A DNA stretch of 40,260 nt, taken from the IMG/VR virus record IMGVR_UViG_3300022539_000216, positions 1 through 40,260 of that record, one strand, 5' to 3'. Shown here in pieces: positions 20,573 through 39,697 of this stretch. The notes under the pieces were generated by a model. It was not told the origin of the DNA and did not search any database. It was given only the letters and a program-made list of their open reading frames with translations. This stretch comes from a virus. The position numbers and the translations under genes are program-made. Each line of letters begins with the position of its first letter. Position 1 is the stretch's first letter.

Positions 20573-20577
20573 ACTTA

Positions 20578-21860: not shown

Positions 21861-24737
21861 TCATTTTCGAGCCTCGATGCGTATACGAGTTCTTGCTCTT
21901 TTCTTGGCTATTTCTATTGCCTTTTCGATAAATCGTATTTGTGCTTCTTTGGGCATTTTTCCCCAATCTGGTCTTTTCAAAATAGGAGTTAACACTGTTT
22001 GCAATTCTGCTGTTATATGGTCTTTGTATTCTTCATAACGTTCGTCATTCAAAGTCCATTTTCCAAAAGTTCGAGGTAAGCTACCAACGCGGATTTTAAG
22101 TCGTTGCATTTCTTCTTGTATTGATTCGGGCAATCTGCCCTCTACATCCATCCCCGCGACCAGTTGCTCCTTTTTGATTTCTTCCAAAAAAGGGAAAACT
22201 GTGCGGTCGTATTCGGCTTCCCGTTTCAAATTATCCAATAATTTATTATCACGCGTTAGAAGCGCCTGTTCAATCTCATTAAGGACATCCCATTCTTTCC
22301 CATAAGTTGCCATTGCCAACTCATCTTTCGCCCTTGTTAAAAGAGTCCACTTTGAAGGTTCCCACGTTCCTACACCAACACCAAAAAAGGCGGTAGTAGA
22401 AGTTATAGGCAACGCTCCATCCAAACCTTGATAACGTATGGCATCAACAATGTCTTGGGCAACCATTGGAATAACTCGTTTGGGTATATCTTCAGCAAGA
22501 AAAGTGGGTTCAAATTTCATCTCCTCGCCTACAAATGTTTGGCCTTTAAGAATATCCCAAGTAAGACCAGCGGGCGGAGAAAGTTTTGTGCGAACATAAC
22601 GCTCTATAACATCTGCTCTGTTTATATTGTATAGACGACCTGTTCCCGTTGCTTTTTGTTGACCTGATGCTGTTTGTGCAATCAATCTTGCCATTTGGGA
22701 AAATCCCGCCCAGAAGTCATATCGTGTATTTCCGTATTTAACTTTTCCAAAATCACTTGAGCGAGGGTCGGGTTCCGTCTCTACACCCTCTATTTGGTCA
22801 AGTAACCACAAGACCGTTATTCCGGTAGCTACAAATTTTACCTCATCCGCTATTATAAGTTTTCTCGCAGCAGGATTTTTGAGACTGACAAAAGCATCGT
22901 AAACAAGTTGTGGCCGTGAAATCTGATAACGAGGCGAGAAGAACATAGCATTAAGTTCTGGAGTAATGCCTGCGTATCTGGTTGGGATAGTCCCTCGGCC
23001 TGTGGCGTGGTTAAGAAAAGCTGCCAATCGTAGATATTCTTCTGGATGGGTGCTCCACGACATACCGGCGCTTTCCCAATTTCGAGCAATATCATCAAAT
23101 ACATTGATTCGTAATTGATTACTCATTGTTGTAAAAGTTCGCTCTGCCCATTTAACACCAGGTATTAATTCCGCCCAAGATGACAAAAATGGTTCTTCGC
23201 GCGTTGTTATACTGGTTAAGCCCCATTCTGTAATGTCAAGTTTGGCACTACGCCGCAGAGAAGCATATCGACTATTCTCTGCTAAATCTTCCAAGTGTCT
23301 GGCATATTCTTTTCCCTTGCTTCCTGGCCTCGCAGATTTAATCATTTGTCCAAAGGATATTGCCCATCGTTTTGGATGCCCTGGCAAAAGAATAATACCT
23401 TGCCGCAGAGGGAAAGATAAGTCGTATGAAGCTAAAGTAGCTCGTGGAATATTTAATACATCTATAACGTTTTGCCACGCCTTTGTGCCTAAAGTCCTTT
23501 TTTGAAGTATTGCCTTTGCTAATCCTTCGCCGAAATGTCTTTGTAATAAGACAGTTTCACCTCGCGTCGGCATATCACCACGAAGTATTTTAATTAATGC
23601 ATCGCTGGTATTTCTATAACGGAAATAAGGCATTTTGGAAATTCGCAATGATTCAAACAGATAAAATCGGTCGGCAGACGAAATCTCTGGAGCGGTAAAG
23701 GCCGGAACAGGATACTCGCCTGCCAGAGGGCCACGAGTTGCATAAGCAGCAGCCTCCCCTGTTTTGGCTCTGCGGATTTGTTCGGCAACCGCCACCCTTC
23801 GTGCTTTTTCTTGGCTGATTAATTTTTCTTTTTTGGGGTGAAGTTTTTTTGCTCTTTTTATTCCCGCCGCAAGCCGGTCAATTGCCACTTTTGTTGCTGA
23901 TGATAAATTGGTGTTCGCCGCCGATTCTGCTATTGGAACGTCATCAAGTAATTGGTAGGCATCCAAAGGTGTCATTCTTTGTATTTGTATTGGCTTATAA
24001 CCTCTTCTTAATAATTGAGCCTTCTCCGCTTTACTTAAAACAATAACGGCGGACTCTTTTGCCAACGTAGCCCTTACTTGTGCGGGTTGCATTTTTGCAA
24101 TTTGTTTAGTGGAGAAAATTCTTTTGGCTGCCTTGATTTCTATGGCAGTTAGTTTCGCCTTGCCAAATTCAGGAGCCATTCTTATTCTGCTTGCTCGTTG
24201 TGCCGCCGCCGCCGAAAACAAAAGAGCTTCAAAGGCGATGTCCATAGCAGGAGTATACCACCAGGGCGGCTCTTCTCCGGTTAATGGTATATACCAATCT
24301 TTAGCCATCGCTTCGCCCATAGTTTTCAGTTCGTCTGCCGCACCAGGGACGGGATAAAAAACTTTTCTTGCCCTCAACATTGATGGGAAAATATCCTTTA
24401 AGGCATTAGGGTTCAGTGTAGCTATTGTTTCCATTACTTCGGGAGCGGGTGATACTTCTGTTAAAAATTTATTCATTCGGTTAACAACGGAACCAACCAT
24501 TTTGAGACCAGTTGTAATAGGATATTTGGTAATGTTATAGAATTTTTCGTATCTATCAGGTTTCGTCCAGCGGCCTTCGTCTGGGAGAAAGTATTCTTTC
24601 CATTTCTGGCCAAATGTGGGTTCGGGAGCGGCCACAAAAGCCATCCCTTTATCCAAAGAGATTTTCGCACCGAATAATTCTTCGGTTGTTTTGACTTCAC
24701 CAAAAAGTTCTTTAGTTGTTCTTACTTCTTCCGCCAT
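21861..24737 (-). CDS. Large internal virion protein, gp16-like, 958 aa
   Basis: The last and largest virion gene. Position and size fit the T7 gp16 slot. I see no lytic transglycosylase motif at the N terminus. The middle (about 370-700, RATLASYDLSFPLRQGIILL.., ERTFTTMSNQLRINVFDDIA) resembles the large polyvalent protein domain LPD38 of podovirus ejection proteins. Similar proteins are injected with the DNA and help it cross the envelope. The start overlaps the upstream stop by 16 bases. Confidence 0.65.
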   Translation of the reverse strand: MAEEVRTTKELFGEVKTTEELFGAKISLDKGMAFVAAPEPTFGQKWKEYFLPDEGRWTKPDRYEKFYNITKYPITTGLKMVGSVVNRMNKFLTEVSPAPEVMETIATLNPNALKDIFPSMLRARKVFYPVPGAADELKTMGEAMAKDWYIPLTGEEPPWWYTPAMDIAFEALLFSAAAAQRASRIRMAPEFGKAKLTAIEIKAAKRIFSTKQIAKMQPAQVRATLAKESAVIVLSKAEKAQLLRRGYKPIQIQRMTPLDAYQLLDDVPIAESAANTNLSSATKVAIDRLAAGIKRAKKLHPKKEKLISQEKARRVAVAEQIRRAKTGEAAAYATRGPLAGEYPVPAFTAPEISSADRFYLFESLRISKMPYFRYRNTSDALIKILRGDMPTRGETVLLQRHFGEGLAKAILQKRTLGTKAWQNVIDVLNIPRATLASYDLSFPLRQGIILLPGHPKRWAISFGQMIKSARPGSKGKEYARHLEDLAENSRYASLRRSAKLDITEWGLTSITTREEPFLSSWAELIPGVKWAERTFTTMSNQLRINVFDDIARNWESAGMSWSTHPEEYLRLAAFLNHATGRGTIPTRYAGITPELNAMFFSPRYQISRPQLVYDAFVSLKNPAARKLIIADEVKFVATGITVLWLLDQIEGVETEPDPRSSDFGKVKYGNTRYDFWAGFSQMARLIAQTASGQQKATGTGRLYNINRADVIERYVRTKLSPPAGLTWDILKGQTFVGEEMKFEPTFLAEDIPKRVIPMVAQDIVDAIRYQGLDGALPITSTTAFFGVGVGTWEPSKWTLLTRAKDELAMATYGKEWDVLNEIEQALLTRDNKLLDNLKREAEYDRTVFPFLEEIKKEQLVAGMDVEGRLPESIQEEMQRLKIRVGSLPRTFGKWTLNDERYEEYKDHITAELQTVLTPILKRPDWGKMPKEAQIRFIEKAIEIAKKRARTRIRIEARK

Positions 24738-26350
24738 TTGTCATCGCCTATATATTCCCACGATTGACCTTCTCCATCTAAGCGAGTTTCTCCGATTTCG
24801 TATAGTTCTGGTTCTTCTGTCTCCGGCACAACGGGGAGAGGTTCTTCTTCAATTTCTTCCGGTTCGCCTAAAGCCAATTCCACCATTCGAGGTATATCTT
24901 CGATAGTCATCGTGGCTTTTAAGTGTTCAATAAAATAAGGCCTCACAACGGTTCGACCGATTTCTATAATTTCTTCACCTTTAGCATCTTGTTCTTTCAC
25001 TTGCTCTCGCCACTCTCTTAATGCCTTCTCATAAAAAACCATTGACATATCATCTGCAAAACCGAGTTCGGGCGACCAGCCAAGTATTCTTTTGAATAAC
25101 TGTTCTGTTTCTTTGTACCAGTGTTGTCGCCATATTTCTCTATCTTCTATCATTGCTTCTGCCGTTGTTGGACTTAAACCTTTGCCAACGGTATCTCGAA
25201 TCTCTTTATCAGTGATTGTATTATCCTCAATTCGTTCATATGTATCAGCCAAAACCGCCCCTTGGTCTCGGAAGGCATCCTCCAATTCTCCTTCGGAATA
25301 GTTATCAAATACCCGCAATTTAGTGAACCATTCCTCTTTCATATCAAGGGACAATTCCGAATCAGTAATCGTATCAAAAGTCAATTGCTCTTTGGTGGGG
25401 TCTAACTTATTTATAAGTAGTTTCATAAACGTTCCACTTATTTCGTCATCCTGTCTTTTTGCTTCTATTTTGGCTAATGTCTGTTCCCCAGTAAGCATTG
25501 TTTTTATGTCGAGAGTTATTTTCTTAACTTCCGCAAGTGATATGCTATAAGTTTTCGACCATTCCTGTTGGTTTTTAGGGTCAAGAATATGTCTGTAAGA
25601 TGACTCCCAACCCTCGGCAACAGCAATCTGGCGAACTTCTGTTTCTATTAGCCCTTTGGCAAAATCCAAAGTGGCTTCGGCAGTCATTTTCTCGACCTGA
25701 ACTCTTTTAATGGATGCCAATTCCGGCGTTATCAATTCGTACTTATCCATTAAATCAATATAGTAATTGGCTATTTCAAGACTGCCGTTACGAGCGGCAT
25801 CCTCCGACAATTTGGTCATCGCGTCTCGTTGAAACGAATCGAACTTTCTATCGTAGGCATGTATTATTTTCCTTTCTGCCCGTGCCCTTGTCTCAACCCA
25901 ATGTAGTTTATATCTTTCCGCAGTTTTACGACTGGAAAAACCTTGTGGGATTTTTGCGACAAGTTCATCGATATCCCTCATCGTCCCTTTAATAAGTTCA
26001 TCTCTTTTTTGAACTGTAAGTGCTACCAAAGTCTTTTCGTAGTCAGGGTCATCTGGCAAAGGCATATCCATTTTGAAATCGGTTCGCTCTATCTCATATA
26101 GTTTATCAGCAACGATTCCTTGGTCTCTTTGTGTCGCCCTACCCAATTGGATTTCGTCATCAAACATCCTCCGTCTTTGGTAGGCATCAAAACCTAAGCC
26201 AGCCACCTTTTGCATCGCCTCGCCCACTCGACTAACCCCACGCCAGATGGCGGTCTCGCCGGTTCGGGTCAGCGCGCCTATATCTTGAGCACGGACTAAT
26301 CCCGTTTCTCTTGGCGGCGGTGTTTCTGCTGTGTATCTTGGGAGCTTCAC
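24722..26350 (-). CDS. Internal virion protein, gp15-like, 542 aa, GTG start
   Basis: An almost wholly helical, charged protein (about 60-430) with an N terminus MKLPRYTAETPPPRETGLVR and an acidic Pro/Glu-rich tail (about 480-520). The plan and place match gp15-like ejection proteins of podoviruses, which form a tube with the gp16 analogue. GGAG precedes the GTG by eight bases. The HNH gene is inserted just upstream, antisense. Confidence 0.65.
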   Translation of the reverse strand: MKLPRYTAETPPPRETGLVRAQDIGALTRTGETAIWRGVSRVGEAMQKVAGLGFDAYQRRRMFDDEIQLGRATQRDQGIVADKLYEIERTDFKMDMPLPDDPDYEKTLVALTVQKRDELIKGTMRDIDELVAKIPQGFSSRKTAERYKLHWVETRARAERKIIHAYDRKFDSFQRDAMTKLSEDAARNGSLEIANYYIDLMDKYELITPELASIKRVQVEKMTAEATLDFAKGLIETEVRQIAVAEGWESSYRHILDPKNQQEWSKTYSISLAEVKKITLDIKTMLTGEQTLAKIEAKRQDDEISGTFMKLLINKLDPTKEQLTFDTITDSELSLDMKEEWFTKLRVFDNYSEGELEDAFRDQGAVLADTYERIEDNTITDKEIRDTVGKGLSPTTAEAMIEDREIWRQHWYKETEQLFKRILGWSPELGFADDMSMVFYEKALREWREQVKEQDAKGEEIIEIGRTVVRPYFIEHLKATMTIEDIPRMVELALGEPEEIEEEPLPVVPETEEPELYEIGETRLDGEGQSWEYIGDDKWRKK

Positions 26351-26371
26351 GAAAAAATCTCCATTTTTTTA

Positions 26372-26400
26372 TTGTAAGTATGGGTTATGTGGGATATACT
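26372..26400 (+). promoter_or_regulatory. Promoter of the HNH endonuclease gene
   Basis: TTGTAA (26372-26377), 17 bases, TATACT (26395-26400). The ATG at 26407 is at the expected transcription start, which makes the message leaderless. Confidence 0.6.
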
Positions 26401-26406
26401 ACTAAT

Positions 26407-27072: not shown

Positions 27073-27648
27073 TTATGCCCTTCTTATACCTGTACCCCAC
27101 GTTGTTCTTGTGGCTGCGTAAGAACCTCCACCTCCGCCTCCCCACATACCTGTTTGGTAGCCCATATAACCTGTTTGTGCGGCTCCGGTTAAGATAGAAG
27201 CACCAGCACCCCAAGCACCAGCTCGTCGGTAGCCCCCTGCCACGCTTCTGGCCGCACTTGCCTTTGAAATATCGAGTATAGAACGGCTTTCATAGGCACT
27301 TACTCGCCTTGCCCCTCTCATTCGGATATTGATGTTTTCAAGTGCCAGTTGTGCAGCGGTATCTTCCATTACCAATAGCGGAGAGCCTTCTACGGTTACT
27401 CCCGCTGCCCCTATCAAAGCCCGCTGTCTGGCAAATAACTGTTTCGCCTTTCTCTTTTGCTGTTGCGCTTCAAAAGCAACGGCTTGACGTTCAGCCTCGG
27501 CTTCTCTTTTGGCAATCAGAGCGTTATATTGATGCCAAGCGGCCTCCTGTTTGGCCTGCTGCTCGGCCATTCTACCTTGTTGGTACATACCATAGGCACT
27601 TATAGCCGTTCCGGTTATCGCCAGTGTTATTATTGCAGCAGTCGTCAT
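27073..27648 (-). CDS. Internal virion protein, gp14-like, 191 aa
   Basis: An N-terminal hydrophobic stretch (about 2-22, with Gly and Ala) is followed by an Ala/Gln-rich helix (about 25-75, EQQAKQEAAWHQYNALIAKR). Then come the GVTVEGSPLLVMEDTAAQLA block and a Gly-rich C terminus (GGGGGGSY). This arrangement is shared by short internal virion proteins of T7-like podoviruses that line the ejection channel. Only ten bases separate its end from the HNH gene. Confidence 0.7.
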   Translation of the reverse strand: MTTAAIITLAITGTAISAYGMYQQGRMAEQQAKQEAAWHQYNALIAKREAEAERQAVAFEAQQQKRKAKQLFARQRALIGAAGVTVEGSPLLVMEDTAAQLALENINIRMRGARRVSAYESRSILDISKASAARSVAGGYRRAGAWGAGASILTGAAQTGYMGYQTGMWGGGGGGSYAATRTTWGTGIRRA

Positions 27649-27649
27649 A

Positions 27650-28084
27650 TCAATCTCTAACTAACCTTGCATATACAATGTATTTTTTGTTGTCCTTTTC
27701 CCTAATCTGCACTCGCTTGAAACCAAAATGCTCAACAAGTTTTATCCCTTTTTCATAACTGCATTGTATTACCGCATTTAATTGTCTAAATGGAAAAGTC
27801 TCTTCGATAATCTTCAGGCCGGACTTGAGCCATCTATAGGTATCAATTTTGTGTTTCAAACATTCTTCACTCAACCTTAACCATAATTCGCCCTGTTCGG
27901 AATTTACTGGATGAACGCCACCACAACCAACAATCCGACCGTCTCTAATACCAGTTACGGCAAGGTTTGAATCCTCAATTGCCTGAGCCAATTCAGGGTC
28001 TTTCAGTTCGTCTATATCCATAGGCTCAATTGGCACAAAAGCACCTAAATCACTTTTCCTAAACGGTCTAACATAGACGCCCAT
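27650..28084 (-). CDS. GNAT-like protein, gp13/DUF2833 slot, 144 aa
   Basis: An N-terminal RPFRKSDLGAFV, a core strand AVTGIRDGRIVGCGGVHPV, and a C-terminal QCSYEKGIKLVEHFGFKRVQ follow the GNAT acetyltransferase fold. Podoviruses often encode such a protein (DUF2833) between tubular protein B and the gp14 analogue. It may assist assembly rather than acetylate. The ATG overlaps the upstream stop as TGATG. Confidence 0.75.
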   Translation of the reverse strand: MGVYVRPFRKSDLGAFVPIEPMDIDELKDPELAQAIEDSNLAVTGIRDGRIVGCGGVHPVNSEQGELWLRLSEECLKHKIDTYRWLKSGLKIIEETFPFRQLNAVIQCSYEKGIKLVEHFGFKRVQIREKDNKKYIVYARLVRD

Positions 28085-31000
28085 CAATACACCTGAAATT
28101 CAATCATCAAAGCCAAAAGCGTTAAGGGTTCTGGTGAATATTGGTAAATAAAAACTCGTCCACTTTTATCGTCATAGCCAGGCGGGAAAGTTTTTAAGTG
28201 GCTGGTTTCACCAGTAGTCATTCTATCAATAGAAACAAGTTCCTTATGGTCTACATCTTTACCATAGTAGAAATCTCCGCTTTCAAACCATCTTGGAACT
28301 ATCCCATTTATCCTTTTTACAAGACCCTGAATCGTCATGCCCTGTGCAAGCCAGCTTAGCGGCATTGTTCTTAACTGTACGGTATAAGGCAGTCCTATAT
28401 GAACGGTTTGATATACATCTCCTAAAGTTACCGTATTGCTATCTACATTAAATAGGTTGCCATCGTTATCAATTACATTACCATCGGCAAGAACAAAAAC
28501 ATCTTCACCTTCCAACCAATCCAAATCGCTGATTACATTAACATCCGTTGTGTAAGTTGCACCGCAATCGACATAAAAGGCATTATTAATATCTGAATTG
28601 AAATCTCTTGCTGAAAAGTATTCGATATACCTTACATCGTTCCCATCTATTGTTCTTTCGACCGAAACCCAAACCTCGTCTTCAGGGTCACCATGAATTA
28701 TGGCCACTGATTCAAAGCTGCCGTCCGTGATTTGCCTTGCCCAAGACGTAATTAGCTCTTTTCTTTCGTAACTGAAAGTTGCAGTTTCTCCATCGTCCCG
28801 AATACACCATAGAATAGAGTCTGGTATCTGTTGAAAAGATGTATCTATTATGCCATCTCCCGTAACCTCTTTGGCCAATATCGTCATATCCGGCGCAACA
28901 TAGGAATTAAGTTCCCAGTTATAGGTAAGCTCTCTCATCTTCTTAGCATTTCTCTGGAAGAACAAAACGGTATCGCTAACAAGATTGGCTTGCAAATATG
29001 CGCTGCCAAGGGTCGATTGCTGCTCGGCTTTTACATTCGATGGCGTGAGGGGTTCATCGTTGGAGCCACTCATCGTCCATTCGGCTCCACTGGTTCCGAT
29101 TAACAACCTTTTTTTCCCGATAAGCCACCGAATGACATTTATTTGATTTGAGGAAATGGTAAAATCAAGTGCGTCATCATCCTCGGCACCAGCTTTCATA
29201 TTATAGTAATCACCTGTTTTAGAACCCCAAATGGTCTGTGGTTTGTGATTATTCCCTCCAAACATCAATCTATCTTGAAAGAATGTTATTGTTTTAGGAT
29301 AGCCTCTTTTATCAGACCAAGCCCCTTCCGCCCAATATTTCGTAGCCGTAGTATCACCAAGAGTATATTGGACATCACCATTTACAACCGTGGGATTTGT
29401 ATAGGATGTAATTTTAACCACGCCATCTATATCAATACTTTCAGCCGTCAATGTATAGTCGCAATCGGTTGCCCCAGTAAATTCAATCATTTTAACACGA
29501 TAAATCGCATCACCATCTATCTCTTCGCCCGAAAAATCAAGATTGCTACCGCTTGCGCTTTTAAGGGCGTGTGTCGTTACGTCTTTCCAGTTAGTGCCAT
29601 TGTCATAGCTTTTTTGAAGTGCTATAGTTCCCGTCCAACTGCCATCGGTAACCAAACGGACATTTCTACCAAGTTGCATTGTTAAATTAGCGGAAACGGC
29701 ATCCAAAACGGACAAAGAACCTACTATAACATTGGCATCAACAGTATGTGTAACCTGCCAGAGCGCTCCTTCGTGGTTCATATCGAAAATTGACGCCGAT
29801 GCCGTCAGGCTTATATTGCCAGTCGTTGAGTTGGGCGTAATGGTTACATCGGTCTCATTTTGAGCAAGAAACGGGCCATTTATAATATTTATATCCTCTA
29901 TCTCCCACGAATCGTGCCAATAACGAGATAGCATTTGCGGGTGATGGTCAGAGTGAACCAAATATAGTACATCGGCAGATTGAGTATATCTCACGCCAAA
30001 AATTTCGGATGGTGTAAATGGAGATTCTATTTCATAAACACCAGTAGAATATAATGCTGTAAGTTCAGCGGCGGAAAGCTCTTTATTAAACAGTGCTATA
30101 TTATCCATCTTGTCCGGATAACTACCAACTGGAACTCCAATCTTAAAGTAACCACCAATTAACACATCTGTTGCACCGGCGGTCATTGCGACATAGCCCG
30201 CATCATCTGTAGCCGTAACTGTTTGAAGAACACTGTCAACATATAATTTCATATAGGTAGAAGGAACGCCAGTGCCACTATAGCCAGCATAAGTTGCAAC
30301 TACAAAATGCCATCCCAATGTCATTGCATCATTTGAAATAATTCGGGCCCTTTTATTATTGGCTTCATCATAAGTAAAAAATCTTAACTTTCTATTGCCT
30401 CCTATCTGAAATGTCCATTCTCTGTCTGGGCCAGTTGTGTCTTCCCATTTGGCTATAACTGTTCCAAAAGTTGTTACATATACCCACGCAGCAATACTAA
30501 AAGGACTATCAACCACTCCATTACCAAAAGAAAGTGCAGCGTTGTTGCCAACAGTTACAGAATCTACACCAAGGTTGAGGTCAAAGCATCCTGTCCCTAC
30601 TTTCCCTGGTTTGTGCAAATCCTCCGTGTTACTGCTTGCAATACCATCATGAGGAACTACACCGACATCATCATCGACAGCAGTGCTGGTAGCATCATCG
30701 TTTAATTTCCAATGTGCTACAAGATTGGCACTTAAAGCACTTAAATCTTCTGTTCCAACCGTTGTTTGTATTTGGCCACCATCTTTATAAAAACGCATAT
30801 ACTCATTGCCGAGTTCGATAATGTATGCCTGTTCGGTCGAATACTCAAAAGAGATGACCCTTGTGGGATAATTGCTATCTTTTACTTCGGCAACATATTT
30901 CGTGCCAGGTCTCTTCTGCGCCCCGCCCTGCGGCAAAGGGAAAAGATTTTCCATTAAAGAACAGCCAGATTGATATTTAGATAAATCTTCTCTGGCGGAG

Positions 31001-31113
31001 AGTAGCGGCGTCAATTCGCCCGCACTAAACGAATTTAATATGCGATATGGCTTATCTTGCGCCACCGCAACCGAATATAAACATAACAGCAAAATCCAAA
31101 AAAACTTGCGCAT
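28084..31113 (-). CDS. Tubular tail protein B (gp12-like) with signal peptide and LamG insert
   Basis: 1009 residues. GAGGAG six bases before the ATG at 31113 fixes the N terminus as MRKFFWILLLCLYSVAVAQ, a clear Sec signal sequence. Residues 20-115 (ILNSFSAGELTPLLSAREDL.., LPQGGAQKRPGTKYVAEV) are the conserved start of gp12-like tail-nozzle proteins. A LamG/concanavalin-type domain (about 129-358: VAHWKLND.., SIAAWVYVT.., ALFNKELSAAELTALY) is inserted before FTPSEIFGVRYTQSADVLYL, where the nozzle fold resumes. The rest (DRLMFGGN.., RELTYNWE) matches the family. A LamG fold suggests glycan binding on the outer nozzle. Confidence 0.85.
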   Translation of the reverse strand: MRKFFWILLLCLYSVAVAQDKPYRILNSFSAGELTPLLSAREDLSKYQSGCSLMENLFPLPQGGAQKRPGTKYVAEVKDSNYPTRVISFEYSTEQAYIIELGNEYMRFYKDGGQIQTTVGTEDLSALSANLVAHWKLNDDATSTAVDDDVGVVPHDGIASSNTEDLHKPGKVGTGCFDLNLGVDSVTVGNNAALSFGNGVVDSPFSIAAWVYVTTFGTVIAKWEDTTGPDREWTFQIGGNRKLRFFTYDEANNKRARIISNDAMTLGWHFVVATYAGYSGTGVPSTYMKLYVDSVLQTVTATDDAGYVAMTAGATDVLIGGYFKIGVPVGSYPDKMDNIALFNKELSAAELTALYSTGVYEIESPFTPSEIFGVRYTQSADVLYLVHSDHHPQMLSRYWHDSWEIEDINIINGPFLAQNETDVTITPNSTTGNISLTASASIFDMNHEGALWQVTHTVDANVIVGSLSVLDAVSANLTMQLGRNVRLVTDGSWTGTIALQKSYDNGTNWKDVTTHALKSASGSNLDFSGEEIDGDAIYRVKMIEFTGATDCDYTLTAESIDIDGVVKITSYTNPTVVNGDVQYTLGDTTATKYWAEGAWSDKRGYPKTITFFQDRLMFGGNNHKPQTIWGSKTGDYYNMKAGAEDDDALDFTISSNQINVIRWLIGKKRLLIGTSGAEWTMSGSNDEPLTPSNVKAEQQSTLGSAYLQANLVSDTVLFFQRNAKKMRELTYNWELNSYVAPDMTILAKEVTGDGIIDTSFQQIPDSILWCIRDDGETATFSYERKELITSWARQITDGSFESVAIIHGDPEDEVWVSVERTIDGNDVRYIEYFSARDFNSDINNAFYVDCGATYTTDVNVISDLDWLEGEDVFVLADGNVIDNDGNLFNVDSNTVTLGDVYQTVHIGLPYTVQLRTMPLSWLAQGMTIQGLVKRINGIVPRWFESGDFYYGKDVDHKELVSIDRMTTGETSHLKTFPPGYDDKSGRVFIYQYSPEPLTLLALMIEFQVY

Positions 31114-31114
31114 C

Positions 31115-31876
31115 TTATCTCCTCGATTCAAGCCATTTTGACGTTGTTATCTTTGCTCCACCACCTTCCTGTCCATCTATGGAGCGAGCAAAATCGAGGT
31201 AGCCAAGCGTTCTTTTGCTGCCGTGAAGCATTGTTTGAAGGTCTACGGCTGTTTTTGTTTCTTGCTTTATGGGACTGCAAAGTTTCAGGGCGAGATTGTA
31301 AACCACGCATTGATATAGATACTCCGGATAACTTGCGACCTCGGTGACTTGATAAACATATTCCACAGGAAGATATTGGTAATCCCCGCCCTTGTCAGTC
31401 CAGTAAGTATCTGTTGCTGCACCAACTCCAGGTTCATCATCTAAATCGCCAGATGTATGGGCGGCTAAACAAGTATAAGTTATATCGTTATTTGAAACGA
31501 CATTGCCAACAATATAGTCTGTAGCCGTAGCCCAATCGCTTGGCGTTTCGCCTTCATCGGTAAGAATCAGACCGCCTTCAACTTCAAATACGGCGAGAGG
31601 GTCTTTAGCAATCGTCCATACCTTCAGGCAATCGGAAGGTTTGGTAAAGGCGTTATCATAACCGAATAATGGGTCTGTAGTCTGAATTGCGAAAGTTCTT
31701 TTACTTGCATAATTCCAAGGATGGGCTTCAAGCATCTCATTTCTGGAACTCATAAAAAATGTCTCACAGTAAATGTGATTTTGTGAAGTACCATCAAGGA
31801 CTATCGCTTCCGCACCCAAAAAACCCAATGCCTGATTACATAGAGCTATATTGGCAGCAGTATCAATAACTCCCAT
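31115..31876 (-). CDS. Tubular tail protein A (gp11-like) with CBM-like insert
   Basis: 253 residues. IALCNQALGFLGAEAIVLDG and ETFFMSSRNEMLEAHPWNYA are the family blocks of the gp11 gatekeeper protein that joins portal and nozzle. Between about 112 and 165 lies a segment (DWATATDYIVGNVV.., YTCLAAHTSG.., DTYWTDKGG) with the aromatic pattern of chitin-binding-type (CBM5/12-like) modules. EYVYQVTEVASYPEYLYQCV then continues the usual fold. The insert could bind surface sugars or be structural. AAAGGTGATG precedes the ATG. Confidence 0.8.
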   Translation of the reverse strand: MGVIDTAANIALCNQALGFLGAEAIVLDGTSQNHIYCETFFMSSRNEMLEAHPWNYASKRTFAIQTTDPLFGYDNAFTKPSDCLKVWTIAKDPLAVFEVEGGLILTDEGETPSDWATATDYIVGNVVSNNDITYTCLAAHTSGDLDDEPGVGAATDTYWTDKGGDYQYLPVEYVYQVTEVASYPEYLYQCVVYNLALKLCSPIKQETKTAVDLQTMLHGSKRTLGYLDFARSIDGQEGGGAKITTSKWLESRR

Positions 31877-31882
31877 ATTGCA

Positions 31883-32536
31883 TCACCTTTCAAATAAAAT
31901 GTGGTTTGTTTTATTAGTTACAAAGTTGAAAAATCTTGCCATTTTATCTATAAGGTCAGAATTAAGTAATCTTCCGTATATTTGCGGATGAAGTTCCATA
32001 TCAACTTGACCAAAACAATCAGCTAATTCTGTAATTTGGTCAATAATGTATCTTTCTGCACCTTCTATATCACAAACAAGAAGGTCAACAAATTTAAGTT
32101 CCAGTAGTGAAAGTAGGGTCTTCAAATCAACTGTAAGAACTTTGTATTCTCTTTTGAACCATAGCGGCCTGTTCCTAACCAGATTCCTCAAAAAATCGCA
32201 TTTCTGACCTCTCTCGAAAAGACTGTTTCCTTTGCCCTGCCAGAAGAAGGGATAGCCGTACTCGTGAAAAGTGGATAGACCATTCTTTTCTCCGACGGCA
32301 AGTTTCAAAGGTATAATGTCTTTGTTCTTCGCTTTTTTGACCAAACGGCGAAAGGCCATATTGCTTGGCTCAACCGCATAGACAGTAGCACCGTTGAACT
32401 TGCTTGCGTCTCTGCCCTTGTAAGCACCGAGAATTAAAACTTTTGAATTTGCTGGTAAATTAAGGCTCATCTTGCACCATTGCCAATCGTCTACAACGCT
32501 TTCCTTCATAGTAAAAAGGGATGAGCCAAAGCCCAC
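31883..32536 (-). CDS. FkbM-type SAM methyltransferase
   Basis: SKVLILGAYKGRDASKF is the SAM-binding glycine-rich loop, YAVEPSNMAFRRLV the acidic second strand, and VDLLVCDIEGAERYII the FkbM-type DxEGxE signature. FkbM enzymes O-methylate sugars or similar hydroxyls. The gene lies between the tail fibre and tubular protein A, so it may modify host surface glycan or the fibre. The best start is the GTG at 32536 behind AAGGAT; an upstream TTG and a downstream ATG are alternatives. Confidence 0.7.
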   Translation of the reverse strand: MGFGSSLFTMKESVVDDWQWCKMSLNLPANSKVLILGAYKGRDASKFNGATVYAVEPSNMAFRRLVKKAKNKDIIPLKLAVGEKNGLSTFHEYGYPFFWQGKGNSLFERGQKCDFLRNLVRNRPLWFKREYKVLTVDLKTLLSLLELKFVDLLVCDIEGAERYIIDQITELADCFGQVDMELHPQIYGRLLNSDLIDKMARFFNFVTNKTNHILFER

Positions 32537-32546
32537 CCCTTTATCC

Positions 32547-34892
32547 TTACGGAATCGTGCCAATATCTAAAGCTGTTAGCGAAGCAGCGTCGTCAATCCT
32601 TCTAAAACACATCATGATTCTGAATACTCCGTCCACATCTCCGGCAGCACTGCTGCCGTGACAATAAATCGTAGTGCCACTTTCAATCAACAAAGGAAAT
32701 TGTTCGGTATCGAAGTCGGCCTCAGCAAGTGTTACACTACCGGTAAAAGTTGCCTTAGCTTCTGTGACAATAGGCGAATCCGGCCCAGTTGCGCCGTGAG
32801 TATTATCAGTCGAAATCTCGAAAACAGCCCAAGCGCTTGCACTTGTATTAGCACTGTCGGTCTGAACGACTATATTCTCAAGATACAGGTCGCCCGATGC
32901 AGCAGTAGTTATATCACTGGTAGCACCTTGTGTATTGTTCACTAAATCCTGAACATTAACATCGGCTACAATGCAAAATTGCGTACCAGAATTTGTGAAG
33001 TCAACGATAATTGCAGCAATGTTAGCATCTTGTGTTCCCATCCACGTGCTTGTAGCGTCCGCTATAGTTTCAATCTGTTGTATATTTGCATCTTGGACGC
33101 CAGTCCATGTAATTAGTGCAGCAATGTTAGTGTCTTGTACACCCATCCATGTGCTGGTCGCATCTGATATGGTCTCGATTTGTTGGATATTGGCATCCTG
33201 AACACCCATCCAAGTGCTGGTTGCATCCGAGATAGTTTCTATATCTTGGATGTTGGCGTCCTGAATACCTGTCCAAGTAATTATCGTAGCGATGTTGGTA
33301 TCCTGTGTAGCAGTCCAGGCTTCTATCTGGCCGATATTAGCATCCTGTCGACCCGTCCAAGCTACCAGCCAAGTATTAACATCAACAACATGGGTTTCTA
33401 TCTGCTGAATATTGGCGTCCTGTGCAGCAGTGAAGGTGTTCACCGTTGTTTCTACCAATTCAAGAGTTGTATTTACATCAACCAAATGAACATCACGAGC
33501 CTCATCAGCCGTATTCATGTCCGTTAGCCATACGTCCCTTGCGGTATCGGCAGTCTCCATGCTTTCAATCGTGGTGTTCATATCGGTTAGTTGGACGTCT
33601 CGTGCCGTATCAGTAGTCTCCATGCTCTCGATAGTAGTGTTCATGTCCGTAAGGTAAACGTCTCGTGCTTCGTCTGCTGTATTCATGTCTGTGAGCTGAA
33701 CATCACGAGCCTCATCTGCTGTGTTCATATCGGTCAAGAAGACATCCCTGGCTTCATTAGCGGTATTCATATCAACAGCGTGGACGAGTAAAGCATCAAT
33801 GCCCGTATTTGAATCTGCTAAAGTATCAGATATAGCTTCAAACGAATCAGTTAGATTGCTGTAAGATGAAGCTGATGGGGTAGCTGATTTGCTCAATATT
33901 TTAGCCCACAAGCTGTCATCCGCAACCGAGGCAGGATAAACACCCGTGCCGTCTTTCAAAGCACCTTTTTCCAGCTTGGCGGATTCTTGCAGAATTGTAG
34001 AATCAAAACTATAGGAATTATCAGGGTCGTCTGTAAATATACTATTGCTCCTCAAAGTAATCGTTGCAGACGTACCATCAATGTAAATTCCTTTGCCGGT
34101 TGCCTGTTTGTTCGTAATGATATTCTCCTCAAACAACATATTGATGCAGGCGTCTGCAGCTGTAGGAATGCGAATTGCACCTTCGTCATAATCGCCATAA
34201 AAGATGTTGCGCAGAATCCTGGTTCCAACCATATCAAACAGAATCTCAATAGCATGGTCGTTGTATGTATCCCCAGGTTGGTAGAAGCCACAATCTTCTA
34301 TGGTCAATCGGTTAGCCGTACCATCCGCAGAACCTACGGCAATAGCACCTAAACCATCCGTTGCTGAACCATCGGTAAAATAACATTCGGAGATGGTTAC
34401 ATCATTTGCTGTAACTGTGAGCATGGTTGCCAAGTTGTTTATTCCGTTCATAAAAATCAAGTTGCTTATAGTGCAGTCATCGGCGGTAATGTGCATATCC
34501 GCATCGACCGCAGTCGAAACGGTAAAAGTCGGCCTGTTATTGCCGTTGCCCATACCTTTAACCGATACGCCACGAACATTAAGGTCAATTAAACCATCTG
34601 ATATTATGTCATAAGCATGTCCTGGCGCAACATAAATCGTATCGCCTCTATCGTCTTCACAAAAGCCTATTGCTTCTTGGAGAGTAATAAAAGCACCATT
34701 CCAAGTCTTGCCATTGCCAGAATGACTTTGACCGCTATCGACGTACCATATATGTCCTGCCTGTTCGACTTCTTCACCTTTGAACAAGTCTTGTAGGGCA
34801 TCTATCTGGTCTCTAAGCGCAGTAACCTTTCTTGCAAAACAAGGGGTAGAGGCAAATAGCAGGATTAACAAAAGAATAAATATCTTCTTCAT
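32547..34892 (-). CDS. Tail fibre/spike with signal peptide, beta helix and repeats
   Basis: 781 residues. AAAGGA before the ATG at 34892 makes MKKIFILLLILLFASTPCFA the N terminus, a textbook Sec signal peptide. About 25-40 form a short coiled coil. About 45-300 form a right-handed parallel beta helix of the pectate-lyase type (TISNLIFMNG.., LTIEDCGFYQPG..). About 375-640 form two families of 14/21-residue repeats. About 645-781 form a beta-rich tip. This is the receptor-binding fibre or spike. Its location after the decoration protein, rather than near gp17, is a rearrangement relative to T7. Confidence 0.75.
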   Translation of the reverse strand: MKKIFILLLILLFASTPCFARKVTALRDQIDALQDLFKGEEVEQAGHIWYVDSGQSHSGNGKTWNGAFITLQEAIGFCEDDRGDTIYVAPGHAYDIISDGLIDLNVRGVSVKGMGNGNNRPTFTVSTAVDADMHITADDCTISNLIFMNGINNLATMLTVTANDVTISECYFTDGSATDGLGAIAVGSADGTANRLTIEDCGFYQPGDTYNDHAIEILFDMVGTRILRNIFYGDYDEGAIRIPTAADACINMLFEENIITNKQATGKGIYIDGTSATITLRSNSIFTDDPDNSYSFDSTILQESAKLEKGALKDGTGVYPASVADDSLWAKILSKSATPSASSYSNLTDSFEAISDTLADSNTGIDALLVHAVDMNTANEARDVFLTDMNTADEARDVQLTDMNTADEARDVYLTDMNTTIESMETTDTARDVQLTDMNTTIESMETADTARDVWLTDMNTADEARDVHLVDVNTTLELVETTVNTFTAAQDANIQQIETHVVDVNTWLVAWTGRQDANIGQIEAWTATQDTNIATIITWTGIQDANIQDIETISDATSTWMGVQDANIQQIETISDATSTWMGVQDTNIAALITWTGVQDANIQQIETIADATSTWMGTQDANIAAIIVDFTNSGTQFCIVADVNVQDLVNNTQGATSDITTAASGDLYLENIVVQTDSANTSASAWAVFEISTDNTHGATGPDSPIVTEAKATFTGSVTLAEADFDTEQFPLLIESGTTIYCHGSSAAGDVDGVFRIMMCFRRIDDAASLTALDIGTIP
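32975..33765 (-). repeat. Tandem 42/63-base repeats in the fibre gene
   Basis: The first set codes for MNTADEARDVxLTD (14 residues) and MNTTIESMETxDTARDVxLTD-type units (21). The second set codes for WTGxQDANIQQIET (14) or the same plus ISDATST (21). All unit lengths are multiples of seven, consistent with a heptad-based trimeric stalk whose length can change by recombination without losing register. Confidence 0.8.
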
Positions 34893-34942
34893 TTTATGTC
34901 CTTTCAAAAATAGGGGGAGCTTTATAGAAACTCCCCCATCGG

Positions 34943-35737
34943 TTATTCAAGCATTAAATCCACAAGGGCGTAATCATCTGCAGCGGCGGCATACAATACT
35001 CTGCCCCATATAGCATCAGTGCCATCAGCGTTAATCACACCGCAAGCACCAGCAACAGAGGCAGTGCCAGTAGGTTCGCCTATTGGCCCACCGATAGCTG
35101 GGGAATCGCCAGTATCGACAAGAAGCGGAGCCGCGCCTCTGGTCTTTGCCCAGAAGTAATAATCCGCCGTTACATCAACCAAAGGCACGCCAATAGCAAC
35201 TGCATCTCTGTCTGTGGCATGAACCGCCACATCACGATACTTATTCTTTACTAACGTGATATTTTCCGTTGCATCAATAACTGTGCGAATACCACCATTA
35301 TCAGCTATCTCGATATAGAGAATGGTATCGCCCGTTATCCAAGTATTGTCCTTGATGATATACATATCACCAGCGCCACTGGCTCCGGCGGTATTGACCA
35401 GCATAATGCCGTCAGTCAATTCGTGGTCGAGCAACCCACTGCCAGTTGTTACCTTCATATCAAACTTGGTCTCACCAACAGAAACGCCGTAAGAACCCTG
35501 AAGCTCATCCTCAAGTTCGGCATCGGGAGGATAGGTAGCCGCCATGTGAGCTCTCGTGATACCAGAACCACCATCCTTTTGATACCTGAACCTATCACCA
35601 TTATTGAAATCCCAAATACGACCCAACCAATTCCTCTGGTCGATAGTCGGAGTGAAGATATTGGAATCACCAAAAGGTTGTGCTGGTTCAGATACTTTAT
35701 TCCTTTGAAATTCGTGATTGTAATTTGGATAATTCAT
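34943..35737 (-). CDS. Probable capsid decoration or head fibre protein, 264 aa
   Basis: A beta-rich protein directly after the major capsid gene. N-terminal NYPNYNHEFQRNKVSEPAQP and the closing VADYYFWAKTRGAAPLLVDT-like segment (residues VTADYYFWAKTRG), with SVAGACGVINADGTD and ending YALVDLML, match proteins that sit next to podovirus capsid genes and trimerise on the head. AAAGGAAAATA precedes the ATG. Confidence 0.6.
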   Translation of the reverse strand: MNYPNYNHEFQRNKVSEPAQPFGDSNIFTPTIDQRNWLGRIWDFNNGDRFRYQKDGGSGITRAHMAATYPPDAELEDELQGSYGVSVGETKFDMKVTTGSGLLDHELTDGIMLVNTAGASGAGDMYIIKDNTWITGDTILYIEIADNGGIRTVIDATENITLVKNKYRDVAVHATDRDAVAIGVPLVDVTADYYFWAKTRGAAPLLVDTGDSPAIGGPIGEPTGTASVAGACGVINADGTDAIWGRVLYAAAADDYALVDLMLE

Positions 35738-35795: not shown

Positions 35796-36755
35796 CTATT
35801 GACATTCAACTAAACAAATTCTGTCCTCGTCCTGTCTGAACGCACCCAAATTCATGTGGATATAAATCTGTTGTGCTTCGGAACGGTCGTGTCTGATGGA
35901 AAACGTAACGCTTACCGAATCCTGAACGCCAAGGATTATCCCGTCCATAACCCATGCCCAACACCGATAAACATTGGTATTACCATCAACATCGTTGGAC
36001 GAACCTTTGACTACCTTGTTGGAGACAATCCAGTTTATTCCGTGCCAGTTCTTCAACAGTCGTCCTGTTGCAAGAGGTTTGTCCGTGTTGTAGTCGATGT
36101 TGATATACTCTTCCTGACCAAAGAGATTCGTTGCCTGACGAGGACTGATGGCGCAAAAGATAGGGGTTTGCTCATCCACTTCGTTTTTCTTGAAATATTC
36201 GATTATCAACTCGGCCTTTTCAACGGTCATCCCAGTATCGGATGCCGAACAATTGCCTTCCGAACAATCATGAGGAATCGTTCTCCCGCCCGATGTTTCG
36301 GTGTACTTAGTAGTACCCGCTTGAGATGCCCAAGTAATACTTGAACCCGCCCGCCTGCCGCTGGTAACGGCGGCGTTAAAAGAGGCGAGGATGATGTCAT
36401 CCTTTTTACGATTGACGGCCTTTCTAAGTGCAACAACAATAGCCGAAGTGGGGTTGTTCTTTAACGAAAGGTCATCGTCTTGGTCGTAAAGAAAACCTTG
36501 GTGATAAGGTGTGGTAAAGCACCAACGCCTTTGCGTGGACACATCAACGGTAGGAGTCTCAGGATTACGCCCCGTTTTCTCCACCACTTCAAGCGAACCC
36601 ATCATATCAAATGCTTTATCTTCGGCGCTAAGAATTGGTTCGACTTGCACGCCGCGGGCGAACAAAGATTCCGACTGTTGAAGAACCTGATAAATAGTGT
36701 CTGCGAATTGGTCAGCAAACCATTCCGGTATCCCCGTACTAAGTGTTATACTCAT
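35796..36755 (-). CDS. Major capsid protein
   Basis: 319 residues. MSITLSTGIPEWFADQFADT.., EVVEKTGRNPETPTVDVSTQ with RRWC.., NRKKDDIILASFNAAVTSG.. and the late strand block IYIHMNLGAFRQDEDRI fit a podovirus HK97-fold major capsid protein; size and position after the scaffold gene agree. GGAAAGGG before the ATG gives strong initiation. I see no maturation protease gene in the cluster. Confidence 0.8.
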   Translation of the reverse strand: MSITLSTGIPEWFADQFADTIYQVLQQSESLFARGVQVEPILSAEDKAFDMMGSLEVVEKTGRNPETPTVDVSTQRRWCFTTPYHQGFLYDQDDDLSLKNNPTSAIVVALRKAVNRKKDDIILASFNAAVTSGRRAGSSITWASQAGTTKYTETSGGRTIPHDCSEGNCSASDTGMTVEKAELIIEYFKKNEVDEQTPIFCAISPRQATNLFGQEEYINIDYNTDKPLATGRLLKNWHGINWIVSNKVVKGSSNDVDGNTNVYRCWAWVMDGIILGVQDSVSVTFSIRHDRSEAQQIYIHMNLGAFRQDEDRICLVECQ

Positions 36756-36885: not shown

Positions 36886-37779
36886 TTATGCAGAATGTTT
36901 CCTTTTATACAATTCAGTTAGTTCGTCATTTAGCGCCTTAAACTGAGGATGCTTTTTGTCTATAAGTGCCGGATTCGCCCTTATTTCGGCAATCTTGGCT
37001 TCTATCTGGCCTGTCGTCGGAGCAGTAACGGTAGTAAGACCTTTCAAGGTATCTTCGCTAAGGCTTTCAGCAATGTTATCAAATAACATTCGCATCCAAG
37101 GCGAAGTTTTAAGATTTGGATTTTCTTCTTCCAGTTTTTGTATTAGCGATTTTTCCGTGCCATCATCTTCTTTAATAACATCATTGCCATAATAATTTCG
37201 TAATGCTTCGGCACGAGCCACTCTTTTTTCAACATCTGCTCCAAGTTTTTTCCTTAATACAACAAGAGCACCTGCTTTACTTTGCTCAGTTTTTTGGGCT
37301 TGAGCTAAATCGAAAGCATCAATATCCGCACCGACCGAAATAAGCCAATCGTTTGCCAGTCCCAGAAATTGCGCTTGGCTGAGATGATGCTTTTTCGCTA
37401 TTGCTGCCCAATCTTTGATTTTAGCATCGTTAAGTTCCACTTTTTCGGAGATGTCTTTTGACCTTTCAAACTTGTAGTCATCGGCAGTATCAAGCTCTCC
37501 AGCGGCCTTCCAGAATGCGGCCTTGACTTCATCGGGCGAATCCTCTTTAGGTATTAGGATAAGAGAGTCAGGGTCTTGGCCAGAATGTCCGAACTTTTCT
37601 CGGAGATTCATATCCGAATTTACAAAATCATCAAAAGTTTTGAATCTCGACAGCGTTGCCCTGCTGCCTTCGGGATACTTCTGTTCCCAGCCCTCGACAA
37701 AACTGCCATCGGGATTCACGACGGACTGAGTTGCCTGGGACTCACTACTTTGACTTTGAGTGTTGTCAGAGTCAGCCAT
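36886..37779 (-). CDS. Capsid scaffolding protein
   Basis: 297 residues, acidic and helical, with the usual scaffold profile. A disordered Ser/Gln-rich N terminus (MADSDNTQSQSSESQATQSV) leads to a middle helical part (EKVELNDAKIKDWAAIAKKH) and a basic amphipathic C terminus (ALNDELTELYKRKHSA) that should touch the capsid protein. It is located between the Bbp19-like gene and the capsid gene, as in T7-like phages. AAAGGAAC precedes the ATG. Confidence 0.8.
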   Translation of the reverse strand: MADSDNTQSQSSESQATQSVVNPDGSFVEGWEQKYPEGSRATLSRFKTFDDFVNSDMNLREKFGHSGQDPDSLILIPKEDSPDEVKAAFWKAAGELDTADDYKFERSKDISEKVELNDAKIKDWAAIAKKHHLSQAQFLGLANDWLISVGADIDAFDLAQAQKTEQSKAGALVVLRKKLGADVEKRVARAEALRNYYGNDVIKEDDGTEKSLIQKLEEENPNLKTSPWMRMLFDNIAESLSEDTLKGLTTVTAPTTGQIEAKIAEIRANPALIDKKHPQFKALNDELTELYKRKHSA

Positions 37780-37791: not shown

Positions 37792-38088
37792 TCAATTAGG
37801 GGTTTCGGTACTTTTTAACATCTCTCTTGCTTTTTCAACGTCCTGATTTATACAGTTATCTATGAAAATCGCTACCGACCTGCGACCAGCATTGTAAGCA
37901 CTTACATACGGGTCGGAGTCGAAAGTGTCGTTTTTCATTCCGCAAAGTTTGTTTATCTCATCAAGTGCAAGTTCGCCATCAACGCCTCTAAATATTCTTT
38001 GAAAACACGCAGAGCGATGCGTTCGTCTTTCGATTTCTTGTCTATTTTTTTCAATTTCCTTTTTCTGGTCTTCGTTAAGTTGCGGCAT
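37792..38088 (-). CDS. Bbp19-like small virion-operon protein, 98 aa
   Basis: ACFQRIFRGVDGELALDEIN, then LCGMKNDTFDSDPYVSAYNA and GRRSVAIFI, is the core of the Bbp19 family, named from Bordetella phage BPP-1, which is always found between portal and scaffold genes. Function unknown. The ribosome binding site AAGGAG lies in the last codons of the portal gene, with a 14-base overlap. Confidence 0.75.
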   Translation of the reverse strand: MPQLNEDQKKEIEKNRQEIERRTHRSACFQRIFRGVDGELALDEINKLCGMKNDTFDSDPYVSAYNAGRRSVAIFIDNCINQDVEKAREMLKSTETPN

Positions 38089-39697
38089 CTATCAACTCCT
38101 TAGTTATTGAGCCTTCTTCGGGAGCTTTAGAAACATTTCTAAGACCTTTACTTAATTCAGAGGCTTGCGCCAGAGCTGCTTGAGCTTGCTCCTGTTGAGC
38201 AAGCGCTCGACGTTCGGCATCTCTTTGTTTTATGTTTTTAAGCCATGTTGCTGGCATTCCATTATTTCTTGCCGAATCTCTAAACGCCACATCTACATCG
38301 AGATTATCTAACCAACTATTATCAAGTTCGCCCATCGGTGCCCAATCCGTCAAAGTTTTGGCAAGACCTTCGGTTTCAAGAGTTCGCATCGCAAGGGCAA
38401 GGCGGCCAAGATACATTATGCTGTAATCTGCATTCTCAAGTTGTGGGGGTTTGGCAGGCAATAAACCTTGACGTCCCAAAATTCCGATTATTCTGTGAAT
38501 CATAGGATTAAATAAATCGCTTTGTAGACGGCCTATAATCGGGGTAAGAAATCTCATTTTTTGTTCCACTCTTGCCATAACCTCGGTAGCTGTCATATTC
38601 TGCCTGTCAACAAGCGGGTCGAACATATCAAGGTAAAAGCCCTTTTGAATCTTTTGTTGAACGGAAAGAATCGCCTTCTCCATCTCTCTGAGGTCGCCTT
38701 TGAACTCAAACCATTCGGGTTTATCTCCGCCAGCACGGTAATAAATCACACCACCTGGTTGAGTAGCAAGAGGCCAAATAGAACCGTCATCAGGTAAAAG
38801 TGCGGGCGGGTCAACCTGCTTTTCCCAACCTTTAATTCTTGCCTTCTGCATTTTGTTGACCATCTTTATATCGGGCAAGGATTTCATTGTTGGAGACCTG
38901 CCATAAACCTCCAATGGGTCTCTGTCAAACATACTGACCTGATAAGGCATCTCAGAGTATCCACTTTCATAAATTAGTTTTTTCTCATCCCGATTAACCC
39001 AAGAACTTGCCCAAGGCATACCAAGAGGGTCATCGGGTTTGTCGGCCTCTTCCCTTGGAAAAACAGCGTGAATAAACCCGAATTTCTTGTCCTGTTGTTT
39101 CGGGTCGTTGTAAGCCTCCAATAGTTTTTCGCCAAGGTTGTCTTTATGCTTTTTGAACTCCTGAACAGCTTGACGTGCTGTATACTCAAATGGTCTATAA
39201 ACAGTATCGACTTTTCTGTCAGAATTAAGGGCGATATAGTATCCAGCTATATGATGACAAATAAATGTAATGGGAGATTTTTTGCCCTTTTCCTCATACA
39301 AACAAGCAGGCCCGAAACAACCCAATGATTTTAGAAATTCAAAAAACGCTTGACGAAAATCACTACTAACAAGATGTTCGTGAGTAATAGTGGTAGTCCT
39401 TTCAAACCACTGTGTAGCTTCATCATCTTCAGCGAGTTCTGGGTCATCAGTCTTCAAAACAAATGCACGGCTATCCGTCGGGAACATATACGAATATAGT
39501 CCCGCCGCCAGTTGGATATTAGAATCCTCAGCGGTTGTATCAAATAAGTCCGGTTTGGCTTCGCCTGGCGAGCGCTTTGTCGTAATCTGATTACTGTTCG
39601 GCATACCGTAATCGGCGCACTGCTGCCATTGGTTATCGAAGTTGACACGGTCAGCCTCAAATTTCTCCATTCTTGTAATGATTTCTTCTGCTGTCAT
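38075..39697 (-). CDS. Portal (head-tail connector) protein, gp8-like
   Basis: 540 residues. MTAEEIITRMEKFEADRVNF.., DTTAEDSNIQLAAGLYSYMF.., SLGCFGPACLYEEKG.., GYSEMPYQVSMFDRDPLEVY with GRSP, and LVDRQNMTATEVMARVEQKM are the conserved blocks of the T7-like connector family (PF12236). The length agrees with T7 gp8 (536). It forms the dodecameric portal through which DNA is packaged. The ATG overlaps the upstream stop (TAATG). Confidence 0.92.
   Translation of the reverse strand: MTAEEIITRMEKFEADRVNFDNQWQQCADYGMPNSNQITTKRSPGEAKPDLFDTTAEDSNIQLAAGLYSYMFPTDSRAFVLKTDDPELAEDDEATQWFERTTTITHEHLVSSDFRQAFFEFLKSLGCFGPACLYEEKGKKSPITFICHHIAGYYIALNSDRKVDTVYRPFEYTARQAVQEFKKHKDNLGEKLLEAYNDPKQQDKKFGFIHAVFPREEADKPDDPLGMPWASSWVNRDEKKLIYESGYSEMPYQVSMFDRDPLEVYGRSPTMKSLPDIKMVNKMQKARIKGWEKQVDPPALLPDDGSIWPLATQPGGVIYYRAGGDKPEWFEFKGDLREMEKAILSVQQKIQKGFYLDMFDPLVDRQNMTATEVMARVEQKMRFLTPIIGRLQSDLFNPMIHRIIGILGRQGLLPAKPPQLENADYSIMYLGRLALAMRTLETEGLAKTLTDWAPMGELDNSWLDNLDVDVAFRDSARNNGMPATWLKNIKQRDAERRALAQQEQAQAALAQASELSKGLRNVSKAPEEGSITKELIDAAT

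Follow-up and report, generated by a model that had tools for sequence, protein, structure and literature searches.

Why would parts of a phage tail begin with signals for export, when the assembly of tailed phages is taught as wholly cytoplasmic? The question is raised by an IMG/VR virus record of 40,260 bases, the whole of which is called the window below. A first-pass annotation had recognised Sec leaders on two of its tail proteins, tail tubular protein B (the nozzle) and a tail fibre, and had described exportable tail parts as paradoxical, a description that our analysis upholds. On the minus strand, the genes follow the order portal, small gene, scaffold, capsid, g35, fibre, FkbM methyltransferase, adaptor, nozzle, GNAT-like protein, internal virion protein and two large putative ejection proteins (Table 1).

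Table 1. Leaders, leader-bearing genes and neighbouring virion genes of the window.
Feature	Position	Strand	Basis
Nozzle leader MRKFFWILLLCLYSVAVA, Sec/signal peptidase I type, predicted cleavage after residue 18	31060..31113	-	Sequence; scorer; kept across lineage A
Mature tail nozzle (tail tubular protein B, T7 gp12-like) with inserted ConA-like lectin domain	28084..31059	-	phrog_376, PF13385, AlphaFold2, structure matches
Nozzle Shine-Dalgarno GAGGAG, within the 3' end of the adaptor gene	31119..31124	-	Sequence
Fibre leader MKKIFILLLILLFASTPCFA, Sec/signal peptidase I type, predicted cleavage after residue 20	34833..34892	-	Sequence; scorer; lineage A fibre family leader-bearing
Mature fibre or spike	32547..34832	-	AlphaFold2, alignment, Foldseek to viral beta-helix proteins
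Fibre Shine-Dalgarno AAAGGA	34899..34904	-	Sequence
Adaptor (tail tubular protein A), leaderless	31115..31876	-	phrog_394
g35, beside the capsid gene, leaderless	34943..35737	-	Census of relatives
Major capsid protein, leaderless	35796..36755	-	PF19821, phrog_3437
Scaffold-like protein, leaderless	36886..37779	-	Position and conservation
Portal, leaderless	38075..39697	-	PF12236
GNAT-like protein (phrog_308/4177) and internal virion protein, no Sec leader	27073..28087	-	PHROG match; census of relatives
Two large putative ejection proteins (542 and 958 aa), leaderless	21861..26350	-	Position after the nozzle

Predicted Sec leaders of the nozzle and the fibre

The nozzle gene starts with an ATG at 31113 and encodes an N-terminus in which MRKFFWILLLCLYSVAVA is followed by QDKPYRILNSFSAGEL, the predicted mature start being QDKPYR; the fibre gene starts with an ATG at 34892, and MKKIFILLLILLFASTPCFA is followed by RKVTALRDQ. 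Both ATGs are preceded at good spacing by a Shine-Dalgarno (SD) sequence, in agreement with the earlier claim that these are true N-termini. The leaders were called using a rule-based scorer of the n-, h- and c-regions, which looks for a basic start, an uncharged hydrophobic core and small residues at -3 and -1. With E. coli K-12 proteins, it gave a score to 16/16 exported and to 4/64 cytoplasmic proteins, all four of the latter being low; a cut-off of 8.5 splits these sets 16/16 versus 0/64 and, having been set on the same 80 proteins, has a true error rate that is somewhat higher. As for chance, when random open reading starts with the same base composition as the window are scored without a cut-off, 1.7% of them pass.

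The nozzle and fibre leaders (18 and 20 residues) score 13.3 and 15.4, respectively, on a scale that cannot firmly separate cleaved signals from N-terminal anchors, and the earlier observation of Sec-type leaders on both proteins is confirmed. Each has the basic n-region, the uncharged hydrophobic core and the small -3/-1 residues of Sec/signal peptidase I signals; for the fibre, the scorer's own cleavage pick is residue 25, versus the predicted residue 20. We found no twin arginine of the Tat type in the leader starts (MRKFF in the nozzle, MKKIF in the fibre), and no lipobox with its cysteine in the 31 nozzle leaders collected from the window and its relatives or in the window fibre leader. 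A SAR domain was also considered and rejected, because the proteins are a nozzle and a fibre, and the cores are strongly hydrophobic with AxA-type ends. Judged from sequence, export of the two proteins by these predicted Sec signals is strongly supported.

A leader ahead of a complete nozzle fold

The protein behind the first leader is a T7 gp12-like nozzle by sequence family, fold and gene order. Its residues 25-1008 match phrog_376 (E 2.2e-194), and the adaptor gene ends one base ahead of the nozzle start. The AlphaFold2 model (mean pLDDT 80), which begins with a helix at residues 2-18, matches the Carin-1 nozzle 8ck1_A (Z 37.5, rmsd 2.4, 636 aligned) and T7 gp12 (6r21, Z 24.4). T7 gp12 and Carin-1 gp36, both of phrog_376, thus share with the window nozzle the fold, the position after the adaptor and the docking domains; they differ from it at the N-terminus, in that the known nozzles start at the mature position, whereas the window nozzle has an 18-residue leader ahead. 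In the structural alignments, the first five residues of almost every solved nozzle listed (T7, P22, crAss001 and others) fall on model residues 19-24, the exceptions being Carin-1, which reaches back to model residue 13, and cyanophage A4, which has its own longer N-terminus. Since the solved nozzles begin at the predicted mature start, the leader is an addition ahead of a complete nozzle fold. In T7 gp12, the N-terminal 45 residues form three strands of the platform barrel, which docks on the adaptor (PMC6702177); an uncleaved hydrophobic helix would project at or near the adaptor-nozzle joint.

The window nozzle also contains a PF13385 lectin domain at residues 189-351, and its residues ~123-402 match lectin-type jelly rolls. 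In the related contigs L018, L030, L033, L050 and L052 the nozzles have about 1,300 residues, with two lectin-type stretches in L018 and L050.

Fibre or spike

The AlphaFold2 model of the second leader-bearing protein is weak, with a mean pLDDT of 55 and little confidence beyond the beta-helix, and consists of a right-handed beta-helix at precursor residues ~48-290, a coiled coil at 364-581 and a C-terminal beta domain; the protein may be a pectate-lyase-like phage fibre or spike. Foldseek matches it to viral beta-helix proteins. No Pfam family passed for this protein, comparison of its sequence with solved structures gave nothing credible, and MW202647 is the only phage record in which a relative was found, a leaderless one. 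The stalk is made of short repeats (DMNTADEARDV..., WMGVQDANIQQIET...) and is predicted to be a single long coiled coil.

The label 'tail fibre' for the gene starting at 34892 goes back to fold type only, and the product may instead be a head spike, a reading which the gene order fits: the head spike base of Carin-1 (gp40), together with gp39, occupies the same place, between the capsid/cement and the connector genes. Unlike the window fibre, gp40 and gp39 carry no leader, and we saw no sequence similarity between them and the window fibre. The earlier identification is therefore better read as a fibre or spike. The distribution of leaders described below is unchanged by a head-spike reading, because a head spike is also an exterior part.

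Conservation of the nozzle leader in related phages

Scanning IMG/VR for the portal gave about 30 contigs with 52-80% portal identity, which we call lineage A, and many more with 31-37%. Every lineage A nozzle with a readable start has a leader, down to portal identities of 52%. The readable set comprises the window, L011, L012, L018, L023, L025, L029, L033, L045, L048, L050 and L052, to which a nozzle scan added L127, L128, L131, L133, L137, L140, L143, L149 and L156. The L021 nozzle has the same leader, IKKLITFFLLCSVALG, in a frame that opens at an ATA codon, and the L144 leader ends in a proline at -1, which the scorer refuses. Leader-bearing nozzles are found also in the divergent lineage B (L148, L151-L153, L155 and L169; ~35-43% identity) and in a small lineage C (L157 and L183), where the nozzle alone has a leader. 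None of the approximately 43 nozzles of distant relatives carries one.

The 31 nozzle leaders contain no acidic residue and have about two basic residues within the first six. Their length is 16-19 residues in lineages A and B, and 25 in C; position -1 is occupied by A (19), G (9), S (2) or P (1), and position -3 mostly by A. Mean pairwise identity is 41% in the leader versus 60% in the first 100 mature residues, both values being slightly lowered by the mis-framed L021 row. Considering this lower identity together with the constant composition, the letters of the leader drift and its Sec/signal peptidase I properties are kept.

Leaders on outer parts of the particle

A census of the other virion genes gave a sharply divided pattern. 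In lineage A, a leader is present in 14/15 genes of the fibre family and in 17/19 genes for a 175-residue protein that has the fibre's C-terminal domain; the exceptions are a start-choice error (L032, where the leader is present from an upstream ATG) or genes cut by contig ends. No leader was found in the portal (0/28), scaffold (0/31), capsid (0/31), g35 (0/31), adaptor (0/25), GNAT-like (0/13), internal virion (0/9) and two ejection proteins (0/7 and 0/2) of the same census, so that the head, neck and injected classes together give 0 of about 180. The window and its relatives agree for the portal, scaffold, capsid, g35, adaptor, GNAT-like and internal virion proteins, and the absence of such sequences from the portal, the capsid and tubular protein A, as first noticed, extends well beyond the window.

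In lineage B, the large fibre gene directly before the nozzle, which is unlike the lineage A fibre in both position and sequence, has a leader in 5/5 cases. The same is true for the protein after the internal virion protein in 3/4 cases, the fourth being a fused reading, and the lineage B adaptor, capsid, internal virion and ejection proteins have none. The rule in this group of uncultured short-tailed viruses is that predicted leaders occur on outer parts and not on head, neck or injected parts. Over all loci, 46 of 240 other genes of at least 150 aa carry a leader in the 31 leader-nozzle loci, versus 3 of 475 in the 61 other loci, and a leader on another gene is found in 26/31 versus 2/61 loci; these counts are non-independent, as the loci share descent and few independent changes underlie them. 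What the sequences show directly is that the leaders are there, that they are conserved throughout the lineage and that they are confined to exterior proteins.

Some lineage A contigs have extra leader-bearing proteins in the interval between terminase and portal, with fibre-like, lectin or polysaccharide deacetylase domains. For instance, L022 (80% portal identity) encodes at 7711-9123, between these two genes, a leader-bearing protein similar to polysaccharide deacetylases. The fibre leader of L048 (5917-7005) is lipobox-like (MKKLIFICAALMVFAGC, FAGC), the sole such case, and judging from this motif the L048 fibre could be a lipoprotein. L045 has at 10374-11885, between the fibre and adaptor genes, an O-antigen ligase (Wzy_C) gene with a TPR end, which possibly alters the host surface. 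In L206 (BK063671, a virus of Methanomicrobiales), the pre-adaptor gene (7869-8384) has a leader-like start and the nozzle has no leader.

History of the trait

On a nozzle tree of 92 rows, built with the leader excluded by a quick method and containing some long branches, the leader state changes at least three times, and the well-supported branches alone force three changes, a count which by itself does not separate gain from loss. One supported group unites L148 with lineages A and B. Nested in it is the pair L154/L179, which lacks leaders on the nozzle and on the neighbouring fibre-region genes alike; the trait therefore seems to come and go as a set, and this pair offers a natural control for its effect. 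Lineage C stands apart on the tree, which suggests a second gain of the leader.

Proposed export of exterior parts and late joining to filled heads

On balance, we lean towards a reading in which the exterior parts are exported, cleaved and joined to filled heads outside the cytoplasm, probably at lysis. The leaders would act as working Sec signal peptides that signal peptidase I cuts off; the nozzle, like the fibres or spikes on the exterior, would be translocated from the cytoplasm and would mature outside it. The cytoplasm would be the place where portal, scaffold, capsid, adaptor and ejection proteins form heads and where these heads are filled with DNA, and the adaptor-nozzle joint would be the boundary between the two compartments. 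The exterior parts would probably wait in the periplasm or outside the membrane until lysis opens the inner membrane, and would then be joined to the filled heads, which are capped by the adaptor. Cleavage of the leaders, the completeness of export and the place and time of joining are parts of this scheme that we infer.

Because signal peptidase has its active site on the non-cytoplasmic side of the membrane, any nozzle that it cleaves would already be outside the cytoplasm. Three observations favour the scheme. We found no second, leaderless nozzle gene in the near-complete genomes G000, G001 and G002, where several segments belong to one ORF; each has a single nozzle gene, so its exported product must also serve in the virion. 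In the 12 correctly framed nozzles, no internal start with an SD could give a leaderless form. Moreover, the divide between proteins with and without leaders falls exactly at the adaptor, which is the last ring on the head side. The most complete form of the scheme, a split-compartment morphogenesis with cytoplasmic filled heads, exported nozzle and fibres, and an infectious particle completed only at lysis, is a tentative proposal to which we give rather less than an even chance; if it is true, every cell holds non-infectious halves until it bursts.

The export reading also has its difficulties: folding of a nozzle of 1009 residues and of long fibres would have to take place beyond the cytoplasm, these parts would have to reach the heads after lysis in spite of dilution, and in lineage C the leader is on the nozzle only. 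Mature nozzles show no excess of even cysteine numbers, the fraction being equal in nozzles with and without leader, so disulfide bonds give export no support. Regarding the host, a weak Rz-like spanin match in the window (a 79-residue protein, E 1.6e-4) hints at a host with an outer membrane, and such a host would have a periplasm available for tail storage. GTDB genome contigs yielded no in-lineage prophage to the portal patterns used, no tRNA is present in the window, and a nozzle search of one phylum gave matches, of which the strongest new one checked is leaderless.

Other readings of the leaders

The first-pass annotation had offered three explanations, namely membrane anchors or assembly handles, secreted decoys or depolymerases, and tail assembly involving the membrane. 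The last comes closest, although what the data indicate is more specific, namely that exterior parts are exported and joined late. Secretion as decoys or depolymerases alone is disfavoured by the single nozzle gene and the missing leaderless start. A dual use, in which only some of the nozzle and fibre is exported by way of the leader and inefficient export leaves a cytoplasmic pool for ordinary assembly, is unlikely in our judgement. The exported pool might block receptors, exclude superinfecting phages or cleave polysaccharides, at the surface or in the medium, and the lectin domain within the nozzle itself would suit such roles, as would the leader-bearing surface-type proteins of relatives (polysaccharide deacetylase in L022, pectate-lyase-like in L011, lectin-domain in L050 and L047). 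However, no SD-led internal start for a leaderless nozzle is found in 12 correctly framed nozzles, the genes belong to the late virion block and to no lysogenic-conversion cassette, a leader left in place would protrude from the adaptor-docking platform, and the absence of leaders from neck and head proteins is left unexplained.

Another possibility is that the hydrophobic helix stays uncleaved, as an anchor which tethers nozzle and fibres at the inner membrane while assembly proceeds or inserts in the host envelope at infection. Although the first 18 residues are most simply read as a hydrophobic helix, modelled as such by AlphaFold2, and some fibre leaders are long (L017, L031 and L032), we consider this improbable: the A, G or S at -1 in 30 of the 31 nozzle leaders and the prevailing A at -3 are needless for an anchor, lineage A and B leaders are short, and solved nozzles begin at the predicted mature start. 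An annotation artefact, with true starts downstream or leaders arisen by chance, is very remote and was rejected, since against the leaderless distant homologues and the GTG and TTG codons inside some leaders stand the good SD that precedes the leader ATG, in the window as in many relatives, and no internal codon, the leader at the same place in all readable lineage A nozzles, its conservation over deep divergence, a chance below 2% per gene, and the restriction to exterior proteins in two lineages. The refuting condition set by the first-pass annotation, leaderless homologues as the mark of a mis-set start, accordingly has a mixed outcome that speaks for that annotation.

Relation to known systems

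Among phage proteins that take the Sec route, M13 coat proteins and secreted endolysins come closest to those of the window, and both are of a different kind. The M13 coat proteins pIII and pVIII are virion proteins with Sec signals that are held at or beyond the inner membrane before assembly. A cleavable Sec signal is described for G3p of this filamentous phage (PMC8310372). The likeness lies in virion proteins with cleavable Sec signals; M13, however, is extruded through the membrane and has no pre-filled head, whereas the window encodes a tailed phage with portal, capsid and terminase, and with signals on exterior parts only. Secreted phage endolysins with a signal peptide or a SAR domain, such as Lys44 of fOg44 (PMC6116005), also use the host Sec route during infection, but are lysis enzymes and not virion parts.

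Both the nozzle family and this type of signal peptide are known. In the open-licence literature we found no report of signal peptides on structural proteins of tailed phages, nor of their combination with the exterior proteins of such phages. We know of no other tailed virus with export signals on outer particle parts only. Conserved export signals restricted to the exterior make the rule of cytoplasmic assembly testable, and split assembly would be categorically new if it were proved. Should export be real, it would provide a new assembly route and a means of keeping virions inactive until lysis, as well as an annotation clue for fibres and depolymerases of uncultured phages, genes which annotation pipelines may miscall as secreted host-like proteins.

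Other features of the window

The record contains a small terminase gene (1672-2187, phrog_51) and the portal gene, and no large terminase was seen in the window; it seems to be a fragment of a permuted genome from which the stretch between small terminase and portal is missing. A tyrosine integrase is encoded on the plus strand at 17856-18701 (PF00589), so the phage is probably temperate. A possible lysis cassette at 19924-21303 comprises a small protein with two transmembrane segments, a lipobox-like protein and the weak Rz-like match mentioned above. Between the internal virion protein and the ejection genes, on the opposite strand, an HNH_3 gene (26311-27063) looks like a homing endonuclease. 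Finally, the FkbM-family methyltransferase gene (31883-32563) lies inside the virion gene block and overlaps the end of the fibre gene.
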